A stretch of DNA of 33,139 bases, from NCBI GenBank assembly GCA_009377835.1, contig WHTG01000010.1, positions 1-33,139 on the forward strand, written 5' to 3'. Shown piece by piece: positions 1-6,021 of the stretch (position 1 is its first letter; each line of letters opens with the position of its first letter). Position numbers and translations under genes: made by a program. The DNA comes from Nitriliruptorales bacterium (GTDB taxonomy: Bacteria > Actinomycetota > Nitriliruptoria > Euzebyales > Egibacteraceae). The notes beneath the pieces were generated by a model, which searched no databases, had not been told where the DNA came from, and saw only the letters and a list, made by a program, of their open reading frames with translations.

Positions 1-264
1 CAACTGCTGGAAACGATTGTTGACATCCAGCGACTGACGAACCGAGAGTTGGAAATCGCCGGTTTCGTCGCCACGATGTTCGCCGGCCGTGCGAGTCGAC
101 GGGCGCGTCAGCGCCAGGATGGCGGGTATGAGAGGTCCCAGGACCGGCACCAGCCAGTACAGCCGCCGTATGCGCACCGAGCGCCCCTGGGCGTAGTCGG
201 CTCCGCCCGGATGCCGTGCCGGCCAGTAACGATCGAACATCATGCCGGGAAGACGCGCGCTCAT
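1..264 (-). CDS. Partial CDS, unknown protein with one hydrophobic segment (runs off left edge)
   Basis: An open minus-strand frame starts at an ATG at 264 and stays open to position 1, giving the first 88 residues of a longer protein. The N-terminus is basic and aromatic (FDRYWPARHPGG near residues 10-20). One hydrophobic stretch follows at about residues 37-52 (LYWLVPVLGPLIPAILAL), flanked by arginines, which suggests a membrane segment. The rest is hydrophilic. It diverges from the cupin gene at 317 with a 52-bp gap. A CATGCT hexamer sits 6 nt before the ATG and could be a weak -10. I do not recognise the family. The call rests on the open frame, the transmembrane-like segment and the lack of a better frame here. 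Confidence 0.45.
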   Translation of the reverse strand, partial: MSARLPGMMFDRYWPARHPGGADYAQGRSVRIRRLYWLVPVLGPLIPAILALTRPSTRTAGEHRGDETGDFQLSVRQSLDVNNRFQQL

Positions 265-303
265 GTGCCCAGCATGCCCGCGGGCCGGCGCGATCGCGGT
301 GCC

Positions 304-309
304 TACACT
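304..309 (+). promoter_or_regulatory. -10 hexamer TACACT, predicted leaderless promoter
   Basis: TACACT ends exactly 7 nt before the ATG at 317. That puts the expected transcription start at or next to the start codon. No Shine-Dalgarno sequence precedes this ATG, which fits leaderless translation. No clear -35 box is visible. Confidence 0.5.
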
Positions 310-316
310 CGGCGCG

Positions 317-760
317 ATGGACACCCCCGCTGCCGGACCCACCGCCGTCGACCTTCGCGACTACGTCGACTTCGAGCTCGCCGCGGCTGCCGGGCGGCGC
401 GTCTTCACGACCGACGTGGTCGCCGTGGACCTTGTCTGCCTCGAGCCGGGGCAGGTCGTCGACGCGCGCACGCTGGCCGGAGCGGACACCATCTACACGG
501 TGCTGGGCGGCAGGGCATGGGTCGTGACGGACGAGGCGGAGGTCACGCTTGAACCCCTCCAGGCGGTCGTCGTGCCGGCGGGTGTTCCGCACGGCCTTCG
601 TAACGACGCCCCCGACCCGCTGATCCTCCAGGTGGTGGTAAGCCCCCCCGACGAGATGCCCGAGTCGGTGTACGGGCCCGCGCCGATCGACGAACCGGTG
701 GTTCCGGTGGCGGACAAGCCGTCCACACTCGACCGGCTGCGTCGGGCGCTGGGCGGCTGA
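317..760 (+). CDS. Small cupin-fold protein with a degenerate first metal motif
   Basis: 147 residues. A beta-rich core at about residues 25-110 reads as a single-domain cupin. The second cupin motif is kept (PAGVPHGLRN near residue 92). The first motif, which usually carries HxH and a glutamate after PG, reads PGQVVDARTLAGADTIYTVL here and has no histidine. The usual three-His/Glu metal site is therefore incomplete, and a binding or regulatory role is as likely as catalysis. The C-terminus ends in a basic helix (TLDRLRRALGG). I chose the ATG at 317 because a TACACT hexamer lies 7 nt upstream; a longer frame from 242 has no supporting signal. It precedes the riboswitch-controlled transporter by 28 bp but probably has its own transcript, because a separate -10 lies at 775. 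Confidence 0.7.
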   Translation: MDTPAAGPTAVDLRDYVDFELAAAAGRRVFTTDVVAVDLVCLEPGQVVDARTLAGADTIYTVLGGRAWVVTDEAEVTLEPLQAVVVPAGVPHGLRNDAPDPLILQVVVSPPDEMPESVYGPAPIDEPVVPVADKPSTLDRLRRALGG

Positions 761-774
761 GGCGCCACATCCAC

Positions 775-780
775 TAGGAT
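775..780 (+). promoter_or_regulatory. -10 hexamer TAGGAT for the TPP-riboswitch transcript
   Basis: TAGGAT lies 7 nt upstream of A788. A788 is the first base of the riboswitch P1 helix deduced independently from pairing. The agreement supports both the promoter and a 5' end at about 788. Confidence 0.55.
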
Positions 781-787
781 GCGTCCC

Positions 788-876
788 ACGCCGGGGGAGC
801 CTCACGGCTGAGAGTGCGGCAACCGCCGCAGACCCCATGAACCTGATCCGGTTGACACCGGCGGAGGGAGAGCGTC
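788..876 (+). ncRNA. TPP riboswitch (THI element) controlling the downstream transporter
   Basis: All hallmarks of the thiamine pyrophosphate aptamer are present in order. P1 is ACGC (788-791) with GCGT (872-875). Then come GGGGGAGCC (793-801), P2 as GCC (799-801) with GGC (806-808), and the conserved CTGAGA (808-813). A variable P3 hairpin follows, TGCGGC (815-820) with GCCGCA (825-830) and an AACC loop. The pyrophosphate arm contains GAACCTGATCCGG (839-851), with P5 as CCGGT (848-852) and ACCGG (857-861), closing in GCGGAGGGAG. Only one base separates P1 from the ATG at 877. GGAGGGAG (863-870) is both the conserved 3' core and the only Shine-Dalgarno sequence, so ligand binding should block translation directly. 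No terminator hairpin is present. Confidence 0.93.
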
Positions 877-2301
877 ATGGTCAGCGGTGAAGTCGTCGCC
901 GTCGTCGTGGTTGTCACACTCGCGGTCTTCGTGTGGATCGGAATCCGGGCCATGCGTCGGGACGGTGACCTCGAGGACTACGTCGTCGCGAGAAACTCGC
1001 AGCCGGGTTCGACGCTGGGGCTGTCGTTCCTGGCCGCCGGCATGGGCGCGTGGGTGCTCTTCGCGCCACCCGAGGTCGGCGCGACAGTGGGACTGCTGGG
1101 CGTCCTCGGCTACGCCCTGGGAGCGGCGGCACCGTTCGTGGTGTTCGGGCTGCTCGGGCGCCGCATCCGCACCGTGCTGCCGGCTGGCCACAGCCTGCCG
1201 GAGTTCCTGACTTTGCGATTCGGACGCGGCTTCTCCATGTACGTCGCCGTCATATCGCTGCTGTACATGCTGTGTTTCGTCACTGCCGAACTCACCGCGG
1301 TGGGTGCGGTGACGTCGATCCTGTCGGGGTTCCCCGCCGCGGGCGTGATCGTGGCGGTGACGGCCGCGACGCTGATCTACACCGCGATCGGCGGACTGCG
1401 CGCCTCGCTGCAGACCGACCGGTTCCAGGCGTGGCTCATCATTGCCCTGCTGGCGGCCGCGGCGTACGCGATGCTGGGGACCGGGTCGGCAGCCACGGCC
1501 GATGCAGCGCCTGCGGCCCCCGACACCCCCGTCCGAGTCGGGCTGGAGGTCGCCCTCACGCTGGTCATCGCGGTGACGGCCGCGAACATGTTCCACCAGG
1601 GATACTGGCAGCGGGTGTGGGCCGCCAGGGATCATCGCGCGTTGCGGCGCGGCGTCGGCACCGGCGCGCTCGCGACGATCCCCGTGGTCGCAGTCCTCGG
1701 TTTCATCGGGTACGACGCCGCTGCGCGCGGACTGGCGTTGGGCACACCGCCGGCGCCCTTCTTCGCCCATCTCGCGGCGGCCCCGACCTGGCTGACCCTT
1801 CCGGTCCTGATCCTCGCCATCGCGCTGGTCACCTCATCCGTGGACACACTGGAGAACGGGCTGGCCTCGCTGGTCGCACCCGAACGTCGCGGCGTCACGC
1901 TCACCACGGCCCGTGTCCTCACGGTCGCGTTCATGGTCCCGGCGGTACTGATCGCGCTGCAGGGATTCTCCGTGCTGCGGCTGTTCCTGGTCGCCGACCT
2001 GCTGTGCGCCGCCACGGTTGTGCCGGCACTGGCGAGCCTGTGGCGGCGAGCCACCGGTGGTGCGGCCCTCGCAGGCGCCGTGGCGGGTCTGCTCGGCGCG
2101 GGTCTCGGAGGCATCGTGGCGACGGGGTCGCTGCGGGGCGTCGAGATGGTCACGATGCCCGGCGCGGTGCCGACGCTGCCACCATTTCTGGGCGCGATCA
2201 TCGCCTCGGTCGCGGTGACTGTGGCGGTGTCGCTGACGAACAGATCGGCGACGAACATCGAGCAGATCGGCGCGGGTGTCCCGGCCTTGAGCAACCGGTG
2301 A
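877..2301 (+). CDS. Sodium:solute symporter (SSS) family transporter under TPP control
   Basis: 474 residues, very hydrophobic, with about 12-13 predicted membrane helices beginning at residues 2-22 (VVAVVVVVTLAVFVWIGI). Family-like features include DYVVARNSQPGSTLGLSFLAAGMGAW near residues 34-59, where SSS proteins carry the first sodium-site helix, and IYTAIGGLRASLQTDRFQ near residue 170, which matches the conserved helix 5 region (TxxGGLxAxxxTDxxQ). It is likely a Na+-coupled importer in the cytoplasmic membrane. The TPP riboswitch immediately upstream implies a thiamine, HMP, thiazole or related precursor as substrate. An SSS protein under TPP switches has been proposed as a thiamine-related transporter in other bacteria (ThiV). 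The substrate is inferred from regulation, not from residues. It converges on the lipoprotein gene with an 11-nt gap. Confidence 0.85.
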   Translation: MVSGEVVAVVVVVTLAVFVWIGIRAMRRDGDLEDYVVARNSQPGSTLGLSFLAAGMGAWVLFAPPEVGATVGLLGVLGYALGAAAPFVVFGLLGRRIRTVLPAGHSLPEFLTLRFGRGFSMYVAVISLLYMLCFVTAELTAVGAVTSILSGFPAAGVIVAVTAATLIYTAIGGLRASLQTDRFQAWLIIALLAAAAYAMLGTGSAATADAAPAAPDTPVRVGLEVALTLVIAVTAANMFHQGYWQRVWAARDHRALRRGVGTGALATIPVVAVLGFIGYDAAARGLALGTPPAPFFAHLAAAPTWLTLPVLILAIALVTSSVDTLENGLASLVAPERRGVTLTTARVLTVAFMVPAVLIALQGFSVLRLFLVADLLCAATVVPALASLWRRATGGAALAGAVAGLLGAGLGGIVATGSLRGVEMVTMPGAVPTLPPFLGAIIASVAVTVAVSLTNRSATNIEQIGAGVPALSNR

Positions 2302-2312
2302 GCAGCGGGTGG

Positions 2313-2858
2313 CTACGGCTGGACCGGGCGTGGGACCACCTCGAAGGTCCCGGAGAAGGCGCCGTCGGGCAGCGTCAGGTGGAGCGTGCCGGCGTACCGC
2401 CTGCCCTTTTCCACCGTGGTCAGGCGCAGGCGGCCGCCGGTCGCACGGACCCGCGGCGCACCAGGGGCGAACTGCACCTCGACCACCGCGCCGTCGGTGA
2501 CGTCGTCGCAGTGCGGCGACGCACATCGCGATTGCGTGACCTCAACCACCCCGGGCCGCACCACGTCTGGATTCTCGACGACGATGCCGAAGAAGCCGCC
2601 CTCCAGTTCACGCGTGAAGAAGCACAGGTCGACGTCGGCGCCGTCGTTGACGTCGCAGTCGCCCAGACGCAGCACCGGCGCGCCGTCGTTGACCGCGAAC
2701 TGGCGCCCGTCGAGCGTGCCGGACAGCTGCAGCCCCGAACGGCCGTCCCGCGGTTGGATCGCGGCAACCCCGGAGCCCGCCTCGCCCGTCCCACACGCGG
2801 CAAGCAGCGCGCACAGCATCACCGCCGCCGCCGCGGCGCGGTGCGCGGCGTGGATCAC
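2313..2858 (-). CDS. Small secreted lipoprotein, unknown function
   Basis: 181 residues from a GTG at 2858. The start is set by a GTGA overlap with the thiolase stop codon (TGA at 2857-2855), so the two genes look translationally coupled. A signal sequence of about 21 residues ends in a lipobox, LAAC, with the lipidated cysteine at residue 22. The mature part of about 160 residues contains paired cysteines (GDCDVNDGADVDLCFF and RCASPHCDD), probably disulfide-bonded outside the cell, and is beta-rich toward the C-terminus (YAGTLHLTLPDGAFSGTFEV). I do not recognise the domain. A secreted lipoprotein fused by overlap to a catabolic thiolase gene is unusual. A longer frame starting at 2906 would run inside the thiolase gene and bury the signal sequence. 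Confidence 0.75.
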   Translation of the reverse strand: MIHAAHRAAAAAVMLCALLAACGTGEAGSGVAAIQPRDGRSGLQLSGTLDGRQFAVNDGAPVLRLGDCDVNDGADVDLCFFTRELEGGFFGIVVENPDVVRPGVVEVTQSRCASPHCDDVTDGAVVEVQFAPGAPRVRATGGRLRLTTVEKGRRYAGTLHLTLPDGAFSGTFEVVPRPVQP

Positions 2859-4069
2859 CGGACGGATTCGACCAGCAACGACTGCCCCTGGCCCACACCG
2901 ACGCACAGCGTGACAAGCCCGCGCCGCAGCGTGGTGTCGCGCCGCAGCCGGTGCAGCAGTGTGGCGGTGAGACGCGCTCCCGTCGACCCGAGCGGATGAC
3001 CGATCGCTATCGCGCCGCCCTGCGGGTTGACGATCGCCTGGTCCAGTGGAAGTTCCCTGAGCACCGCCAGGCTCTGCCCCGCGAACGCCTCGTTGAGTTC
3101 CACGGTGTCGACGTCGTCGAGTGTCCAGCCGGCGCGTCGCAGCGCGACCTCCGTCGCGCCCACCGGCGCGATCCCCATGAACGACGGGTCGGCCCCGACG
3201 ACACCGCTGGCCACGATCCGGGCCGCAGGCTCCAAGCCGTACCGGTCGACAGCCGCCGCGGATGCCACCAGCACGGCCGCGGCACCGTCGTTCAGACTCG
3301 ACGAGTTGCCGGCGGTGACGGATCCTCCCTGGCGGAAGACCGGGCGCAGCTTGGCCAGCGACTCCATCGAGGTGTCGGCGCGCGGCCCCTCGTCACGGTC
3401 GAACACCGTTACGGCACCGCGCCGGCCCGGGACATCGACCGCCACCGTTTCGGCGTCGAACTCGCCGGCGTCCCAGGCCGCGACGGCGCGTTCGTGCGAC
3501 CGCAGCGAGAACGCGTCCTGCTCCTCGCGGCTGATGTCGTACTTCTCGACGAGATTCTCGGCCGTCTCGCCCATGGCCAGCGGCGGGTGCATGGCTGCCA
3601 GTTTCGGGTTGACGAACCGCCAGCCGAACGACGAGTCGACCAGTTCGGGGACACCCCTGGGCGGCAGCGACTCGGGCTTTGCCATCACCCACGGGGCGCG
3701 TGTCATGGACTCGACGCCGCCGGCGATCAGGACGTCGCCCTCGCCGACCATGACGGCGCGCGCGGCCTGCACCACGGCGTCCAGACCCGAGGCGCAGAGG
3801 CGGTTGACGGTCGACCCCGGGACACTGATCGGCAGGCCCGCCAGTAACAGGCTCATGCGGGCGACGTTGCGGTTGTCCTCCCCGGCCTGGTTCGTGCAGC
3901 CCGCGATCACCTCCTCGACGGCCCCGCCCTCCAGGCCGCTGCGTTCGACCAACGACCGCAGCACGCCGGCCAGCAAGTCGTCGGGACGCACCGCTGACAG
4001 CGCCCCGCCGAACTTCCCGACGGGTGTACGGACGGCGTCGACAAGGAACGCTTCGCGCAATTCAGTCAT
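2855..4069 (-). CDS. paaJ: Beta-ketoadipyl-CoA thiolase (acetyl-CoA acyltransferase)
   Basis: 404 residues, the normal thiolase length. Catalytic residues are visible: nucleophile Cys92 in NRLCASGLDAV, His358 in IGHPLGSTGAR and Cys389 in CVGVGQG. The stretches NQAGEDNRNVARM (60-72) and GWRFVNPK are typical of PaaJ/PcaF-type thiolases rather than general FadA. The reaction would be 3-oxoadipyl-CoA plus CoA giving succinyl-CoA plus acetyl-CoA, the last step of the phenylacetyl-CoA and beta-ketoadipate routes. The position, divergent from paaX and the paa oxygenase genes, favours a phenylacetate role, though PcaF activity cannot be excluded. The ATG at 4069 has a TACCCT hexamer 7 nt upstream and no Shine-Dalgarno sequence, so it is probably leaderless. 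The frame stays open upstream to 5023, across paaX, but that extension is not coding. Confidence 0.88.
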   Translation of the reverse strand: MTELREAFLVDAVRTPVGKFGGALSAVRPDDLLAGVLRSLVERSGLEGGAVEEVIAGCTNQAGEDNRNVARMSLLLAGLPISVPGSTVNRLCASGLDAVVQAARAVMVGEGDVLIAGGVESMTRAPWVMAKPESLPPRGVPELVDSSFGWRFVNPKLAAMHPPLAMGETAENLVEKYDISREEQDAFSLRSHERAVAAWDAGEFDAETVAVDVPGRRGAVTVFDRDEGPRADTSMESLAKLRPVFRQGGSVTAGNSSSLNDGAAAVLVASAAAVDRYGLEPAARIVASGVVGADPSFMGIAPVGATEVALRRAGWTLDDVDTVELNEAFAGQSLAVLRELPLDQAIVNPQGGAIAIGHPLGSTGARLTATLLHRLRRDTTLRRGLVTLCVGVGQGQSLLVESVR

Positions 4070-4171: not shown

Positions 4172-5059
4172 GTGAAGGCCCGGTCCGCCTTGTTCACCCT
4201 GTTCGGCGATGTCGTGCGCCCCGCCGGCGGTGACGCCTGGCTGAGCACGATCACCACCTGCATGGGCGCGCTGGGGTTCACACCGGAAGCGACCCGCACG
4301 GCCCTGCACCGCATGGCGGCCGAGGGGTGGGTCGTGCCGCGGCGCAGTGGGAGATACTCGGCCTACCGTCTCACCGACGCGGGCGTGGAACGTCTGGAGG
4401 AAGCGGCCGCGCGCATCTACCGGCTGCGCGCGGCCGACTGGGACGGCCGCTGGCACGTGCTGGTGTGCCCGGCGGCCGGGCGTGTCGGCGAGGTCGCTCG
4501 GGAACTGCAGTGGAGCGGGCACGGCCGACTGTCCGCCGACGTGTGGGTCAGTCCACACCCGCAGGGCCGGCGGCTGACACGGTTGCTCACCACGCACGAA
4601 CTGGGCGACGCCGCGGTCCGGTTCGACACCGTGACGGCCGCCGATCCGGTTGAGAACCAGCGCATCGTCGCCGCCGCGTGGGACGTCAGCGAACTGCGCC
4701 ACGCCCATGAGACATTCATCGAGCAGTGGAGCCGTGCGACCGCTCCGCACGACCCGCAGACCGCCTTCACCACGCGGATCCGCCTCGTTCATCACTGGCG
4801 GTCGTTCCTGTTCATGGACCCGGGTCTGCCCCGGGAGCTGCTGCCCGACGACTGGCTCGGTGAGCTCGCGGCAACGGTGTTCCGGTCGCTGTACGAAGCC
4901 GTCGACGCGCCGGCGTGGCGCTTCTACGACTCGGTCGTGCAGTCCGCTCCCCCGCTGGGCGACACCGAGGGTGACGCGCCGGTCCGCCCGCTGCGGCTGC
5001 ACGAGAGCAACCCCTTCGTCCACGGGCTGGACGCAATGACAACCACCCGACCCGCCTGA
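4172..5059 (+). CDS. paaX: Phenylacetic acid degradation operon repressor PaaX
   Basis: 295 residues, matching the PaaX family in length and order. An N-terminal winged helix (about 3-75) contains LFTLFGDVVRP and the recognition-helix region PEATRTALHRMAAEGWVVPRRSGRYSAYRLT. A central domain follows (WDGRWHVLVCP near 90), then the PaaX-like C-terminal part with RIRLVHHWRSFLFMDPGLPRELLPDDW. PaaX repressors generally release DNA on binding phenylacetyl-CoA, so induction by the pathway's own substrate is expected. The GTG start at 4172 is set by GAGGGGG at 4158-4164. paaA begins 14 bp after the stop, so repressor and oxygenase genes are probably co-transcribed. The perfect inverted repeat upstream suggests autoregulation. 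Confidence 0.92.
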   Translation: MKARSALFTLFGDVVRPAGGDAWLSTITTCMGALGFTPEATRTALHRMAAEGWVVPRRSGRYSAYRLTDAGVERLEEAAARIYRLRAADWDGRWHVLVCPAAGRVGEVARELQWSGHGRLSADVWVSPHPQGRRLTRLLTTHELGDAAVRFDTVTAADPVENQRIVAAAWDVSELRHAHETFIEQWSRATAPHDPQTAFTTRIRLVHHWRSFLFMDPGLPRELLPDDWLGELAATVFRSLYEAVDAPAWRFYDSVVQSAPPLGDTEGDAPVRPLRLHESNPFVHGLDAMTTTRPA

Positions 5060-5073
5060 TCCAAGGAGCCGCG

Positions 5074-6021
5074 ATGAGCACGACCAACCGCTTCGCGTCC
5101 AGCCAGGCCTACGCCGAGCGCAATGCGAAGTTCAAGGCGCACATCGACGCCGGCGGCATGGTCGAGGCGACCGACTGGATGCCCGACGAGTACCGCGAGT
5201 CGGCGCTGAAGTTCATCGAGATGCACGCCAACTCCGAGATCATGGGCGCGCTGCCTGAGCGCGAGTGGATCGCGCGCGCCCCATCGTTGCGGCGGAAGAT
5301 GTCCCTGACCGCCAAGGTGCAGGACGAGGTGGGTCACGGTCACATGCTGTACCGCGTCGCCGAAGATCTCGGAAAGTCACGAGACGCGATGATCACCGAT
5401 CTCATCCACGGCCGCACCAAGTTCCACAACGTCTTTCACTATCCCACCTACACGTGGGGCGACGTGGCGGTCATCGGCTACCTCATCGACGGCGCCGCGC
5501 TGGTGACACAGAAGGCGCTGCTCGAGTGCTCCTACGCTCCGTACGTCAGGGTGCTCAAGCGCATCTGCGCCGAGGAGAGCCTGCACCAGCGCCACGGTGA
5601 GAACCTGGTGCTCGAACTGTGTTCCGGCACGCCCGAGCAGCGGCAGATGTTCGCCGAGGCCGTGGATCGCTGGTGGGAGCCAATCATGCAGTTCTTCGGC
5701 ACCCCCACCACCGGCCGGCGCGATGTGCTGCTCGAGTGGCGCCTGAAGGTCAAGTCCAACGAGGAACTGCGCCAGCGGTTCTTCGACATGTTCGTGCCGA
5801 AACTGTGGGACCTGGGCATCTCGGTGCCCGACGACAAGCTGGCCTACAACGCCGAGAAGGGCGAGTGGGACTGGACGGAACCGGACTGGGAGAGCTTCTG
5901 GAGGGTGGTCAAAGGTGATGGGCCGATGACCGAGACACGGCTGGCGTGGCGCCGCTGGATGCACGACGCGCACGCGTGGGTGCGTGAGGCGATGGACTCA
6001 CCGACGAGGATCGCCGCATGA
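5074..6021 (+). CDS. paaA: Phenylacetyl-CoA 1,2-epoxidase catalytic subunit PaaA
   Basis: 315 residues, full length. This is the ferritin-like di-iron subunit of the multicomponent monooxygenase that converts phenylacetyl-CoA to its ring 1,2-epoxide using O2 and electrons from PaaE. Recognisable stretches are EMHANSEIMGALPEREWIAR near 49-68 and the helix with the iron-ligand region KVQDEVGHGHMLYRVAEDLG near 80-99. A later ligand helix is CAEESLHQRHGENL near 167-180. The ATG at 5074 is preceded by AAGGAG (5063-5068). It follows paaX by 14 bp. Unlike the other paa genes here, it is separated from paaB by a 154-bp structured spacer, so paaA may be expressed at a different level from paaBCD. Confidence 0.96.
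   Translation: MSTTNRFASSQAYAERNAKFKAHIDAGGMVEATDWMPDEYRESALKFIEMHANSEIMGALPEREWIARAPSLRRKMSLTAKVQDEVGHGHMLYRVAEDLGKSRDAMITDLIHGRTKFHNVFHYPTYTWGDVAVIGYLIDGAALVTQKALLECSYAPYVRVLKRICAEESLHQRHGENLVLELCSGTPEQRQMFAEAVDRWWEPIMQFFGTPTTGRRDVLLEWRLKVKSNEELRQRFFDMFVPKLWDLGISVPDDKLAYNAEKGEWDWTEPDWESFWRVVKGDGPMTETRLAWRRWMHDAHAWVREAMDSPTRIAA

Follow-up and report, generated by a model that had tools for sequence, protein, structure and literature searches.

The riboswitch locus

The window, i.e., the whole stretch of 33,139 nucleotides that was analysed, carries near its beginning a TPP riboswitch aptamer (788-875 on the + strand, from P1 to P1) directly followed by the gene of a sodium:solute symporter (877-2301, + strand). 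The sole Rfam match that cmscan returned for the window was RF00059 (TPP) at 783-887, with 63.2 bits and an E value of 2.5e-10. A sequence-only reading of this DNA had named a covariance-model search with RF00059 as a check on the aptamer, and the match lies above the gathering score of 54.3 bits and covers the whole model (positions 1-105 of 105). In the sequence, the Rfam model, and the fold alike, P1 is formed by ACGC (788-791, + strand) and GCGT (872-875, + strand), and the minimum-free-energy fold of 788-876 is that of a TPP aptamer with P1, P2, P3, P4, and P5. Within P4, the fold and the Rfam model pair CCU (842-844, + strand) with A865, G866, and G867, so that CCU serves as a putative internal anti-Shine-Dalgarno strand; the pair probability of these bases in the folded 788-876 transcript was 0.67. 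The stability of this fold is by itself unexceptional (z -0.81) and, therefore, it is the covariance model and the conservation that carry the identification. On these grounds the element is a TPP aptamer, with TPP binding itself predicted.

On its upstream side the switch is adjoined by a cupin ORF (242-760), and a similar C-terminal coding sequence ends shortly before the switch in the relatives L023, L029, and L042. Further downstream, at 4172-6021 of the window, a PaaX-like regulator and a PaaA/PaaC-family gene mark the start of a phenylacetate degradation region.

Promoter and predicted transcript start

A -10 element of the TANNNT form, TAGGAT, is located at 775-780 (+ strand), and the seven bases GCGTCCC (781-787) separate it from A788, the first base of P1 and the predicted transcription start (788, + strand). 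In a single sequence TANNNT is a weak motif. Across the class Nitriliruptoria it begins 4-16 bases 5' of the model start in 58 of the 86 TPP aptamers. Two control bins of that width gave 0 of the 86, and bins of that width between -300 and -100 gave about 0.7 each. In the leaders of the symporter orthologues, 21 out of 22 carry TANNNT at the spacing seen in the window or a few bases further upstream; counting seven bases on from the -10 element leads exactly to the first base of P1 in 11 symporter leaders and mostly to a point 4-6 bases earlier in the others. In Corynebacterium glutamicum, the 5' ends of five TPP leaders obtained by RNA-seq fall between 9 nt upstream and 5 nt downstream of the start of the Rfam match (PMC3890552 Table 2). 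The start at A788, which had been proposed from TAGGAT plus 7 nt, is thus backed both by the conserved spacing of the -10 element and by the starts mapped in Corynebacterium (PMC3890552), and we consider it a well-supported prediction that transcription begins at A788 or no more than a few bases away.

Read-through of the cupin gene could instead produce a message that originates upstream, with the TAGGAT box being incidental. The cupin ORF stops only 27 bases 5' of A788, similar reading frames terminate just upstream of the switch in several relatives, and a scan for the sigma-70 consensus found no recognisable -35 element before A788. Nevertheless, the distance between TANNNT and P1 is nearly constant in the orthologous leaders and in the aptamers of the class counted above, regardless of what lies upstream, which makes this origin very improbable; moreover, a translational mechanism would be unaffected by read-through from upstream.

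The ribosome-binding site lies within the aptamer

The segment GGAGGGAG occupies 863-870 and the start codon ATG occupies 877-879. The only visible Shine-Dalgarno sequence, GGAGG (863-867, + strand), belongs to this segment; it sits in the conserved 3' core of the aptamer, 9 nt 5' of the ATG, with its AGG inside P4. As the sequence-only reading had it, P1 stops one base short of the start codon and GGAGGGAG of the 3' core provides the only Shine-Dalgarno sequence; the positions of both P1 strands and of the ATG at 877 agree with this, and the Shine-Dalgarno segment is conserved in relatives. Direct translation attenuation is recognised by a start codon no more than 15 nt from the end of P1 (PMC2258182), and here P1 ends at 875 and the ATG starts at 877. 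The other two marks of this type are also present: the ribosome-binding site is within the aptamer core, and the stretch from P1 to the ATG, one base long, contains neither a terminator nor a sequestering hairpin of its own. A short reading frame that overlaps the start codon (837-890) was rejected as unconserved, its ATG being ACG in several relatives.

The terminator scan found no terminator-like site in positions 1-3000 of the window. When longer transcripts were folded singly, folds lacking P1 became energetically favoured once coding sequence was appended to the leader, which hinted at an expression platform that reaches into the coding region. This candidate was rejected, as pairing between the aptamer and the ORF in 22 orthologues was no greater than in shuffled sequence (mean z -0.32). 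As neither a terminator nor conserved pairing to the coding region was found, a single RNA appears to be both sensor and expression platform, a claim of the sequence-only reading that stands on both counts.

Proposed mechanism

We are highly confident that this TPP riboswitch works by direct translation attenuation, with a transcript start near A788, a GGAGG held in P4, and a probably HMP-importing symporter as its target. The 5' leader, about 89 nt long, would essentially be the aptamer. As long as no TPP is bound, P1 and the three-way junction would be loose, and the 30S subunit could melt the short P4 helix between CCU 842-844 and AGG 865-867, base-pair with GGAGG, and initiate at the ATG at 877. 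Upon binding of TPP the junction would close and P1 would lock one base 5' of the ATG, which would keep the Shine-Dalgarno sequence trapped in P4 and the symporter untranslated. In the simplest mechanism, TPP and the 30S subunit would in essence compete for the 3' strand of the aptamer. In the predicted ligand-free state, opening the partly P4-paired Shine-Dalgarno sequence costs 2.7 kcal/mol; since it is partly paired even then, the ON state that we infer needs the ribosome to melt P4. The control by TPP would accordingly be a translational OFF control.

Conceivably, the aptamer could act mainly through transcription: once its translation is blocked, the mRNA would be exposed to Rho or decay, and the level of the message would change. 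A precedent exists in mycobacteria, where a Mg2+ riboswitch is reported to combine a translational platform with Rho-dependent termination (PMC12810186). However, with the Shine-Dalgarno sequence and the start codon inside or against the aptamer, translation is necessarily hit first, and Rho would be an added layer and no alternative sensor. As there is no intrinsic terminator, any transcriptional effect must be secondary. We therefore hold a mainly transcriptional action to be unlikely, while the direct translation attenuation that we favour may be accompanied by secondary message loss through Rho or decay.

Conservation across the class

The comparison covered 66 genomes of the class Nitriliruptoria, in which the symporter was counted on strong matches only, the aptamers of the relatives were taken from the RF00059 hits of each genome, and the genes behind other aptamers were identified by their translations or by family matches at the same coordinates. 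The symporter is present in 23 of the 66 genomes, the window genome included, and its orthologues in the 22 other genomes are 49-70% identical. In 21 of these 22 a TPP aptamer overlaps the start codon, and GGAGG lies nine bases 5' of the start codon in most symporter orthologues. The lone exception is L027, in which a decayed aptamer of 13 bits (1142-1238) precedes an intact symporter orthologue. Beyond the symporter, an in-frame start directly follows P1 in 75 of the 80 class aptamers that have a homology-supported reading frame, compared to 21% in equal control intervals. Direct masking, as predicted from this placement of aptamer and start codon, is the rule in the class and no curiosity.

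It is possible, and we suggest it tentatively, that the class default goes further and fuses promoter, sensor, and ribosome-binding site, with the +1 on the first base of P1 and the 30S subunit competing with TPP for the P4 strand without any alternative RNA structure. If so, the fused leaders of the class would be the smallest possible TPP switches and would offer a clean test of the competition between ribosome and ligand.

Several departures from the common arrangement were observed. The aptamer of L027 has lost the conserved 3' core with GGAGGGA, which could reflect either faulty assembly or a switch that was lost naturally. In L028, ahead of the symporter start (minus strand), the 5' strands of P1 and P2 have apparently been replaced by tandem repeat copies containing GGTCACTCACGTAGCG; this aptamer scores only 45 bits and the promoter box is lost too. 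A decayed aptamer was sought in the symporter orthologues of Marinobacter and none was found. In six of the eight Marinobacter orthologues without an aptamer (L005, L006, L008, L010, L012, and L021), CGGCGGAG occurs at the position of the Shine-Dalgarno sequence, which may be left over from the aptamer core or be due to chance. Direct-type TPP switches also precede thiamine pyrophosphokinase in L060, L104, and about 24 more genomes of the class, largely those without the symporter.

Symporter and thiamine gene content

The ORF at 877-2301 matches the SSF domain PF00474 with 30.7 bits against a threshold of 22.8, which is a weak match, and its orthologues carry the aptamer at their start codon in 21 of the 22 other genomes. 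The window genome, a 3.34-Mb draft that is 93.9% complete, has matches to ThiD, ThiE, and ThiG. No match to ThiC was found in 63 of the 66 class genomes, including the window genome, whose missing part could hold ThiC; thiamine pyrophosphokinase likewise had no match in this incomplete draft. A second TPP switch of the window genome (G000:C197:10881-10987; L001 1501-1607, minus strand) precedes a thiO-like gene, with the matches to ThiG and ThiE downstream of that gene; here too the start codon, a GTG, directly adjoins the aptamer, and upstream there is a TAGCAT box at nearly the distance seen in the switch of the window.

Across the class, ThiG occurs in 22 of the 23 genomes with the symporter and in 15 of the 43 others (Fisher p 1e-6), whereas thiamine pyrophosphokinase is rarer with the symporter (4 of 23 compared to 27 of 43, p 6e-4), both by a test that ignores shared ancestry. 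The window genome, with no ThiC match, appears unable to make HMP and can probably use it. The sequence-only reading had expected an SSS transporter that imports thiamine or a precursor; the PF00474 match agrees with the family, and the gene content narrows the substrate. Because the genome has matches to ThiD, ThiE, and ThiG and none was found to ThiC or thiamine pyrophosphokinase, HMP is the most likely substrate, and since a cell that makes thiazole but no HMP needs HMP, the symporter is probably a ThiV-type HMP importer. Proteins of the SSF family transport many solutes and the PF00474 match is weak, so the protein may carry thiamine itself or another solute. Nevertheless, the presence of ThiG in nearly all of the symporter genomes and the lack of thiamine pyrophosphokinase in 19 of the 23 are the reverse of what thiamine salvage needs, which makes a substrate other than HMP quite unlikely. 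In much of the class, HMP import and not synthesis is, then, the likely source of the pyrimidine half of the vitamin.

Comparison with known systems

The arrangement in the window is already known and is not unusual. In direct translation attenuation, the purine-rich conserved 3' region of the TPP aptamer is itself the ribosome-binding site (Barrick and Breaker 2007, PMC2258182, citing Rodionov et al. 2002), and this type was described by 2007 as the most frequent in Actinobacteria (PMC2258182). The present analysis adds a comparison across the class and a narrower choice of substrate for the transporter. The locus is a clean minimal example of one RNA that would be sensor and ribosome-binding site together, and throughout the class the predicted transcription start and the start codon appear to be locked to the two ends of the aptamer.

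The switch is like those of PMC2258182 in kind, with a start codon only 1 nt from P1 and a transcript that is predicted to open with P1. In the TPP leaders of thiC, thiM, thiE, and cg1227 of C. glutamicum (PMC3890552), the leader ends at the 3' edge of the aptamer as it does in the window; the genes are other ones, the host is distant, and the transcript is mapped there and predicted here. The closest likeness for the transporter is ThiV of SAR11, an SSF-family protein with a TPP riboswitch upstream and HMP as its substrate, in a genome that is unable to make HMP (PMC11452348). The symporter of the window resembles it in family, in the upstream TPP riboswitch, and in HMP as the likely substrate. 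The residues of the ThiV substrate site are Tyr78, Asp139, and Phe254-His in SiaT numbering (PMC11452348); the symporter of the window has Phe239-His240 and an acidic Glu138 and no evident tyrosine in the cTMD2-like stretch, these positions having been assigned by eye.
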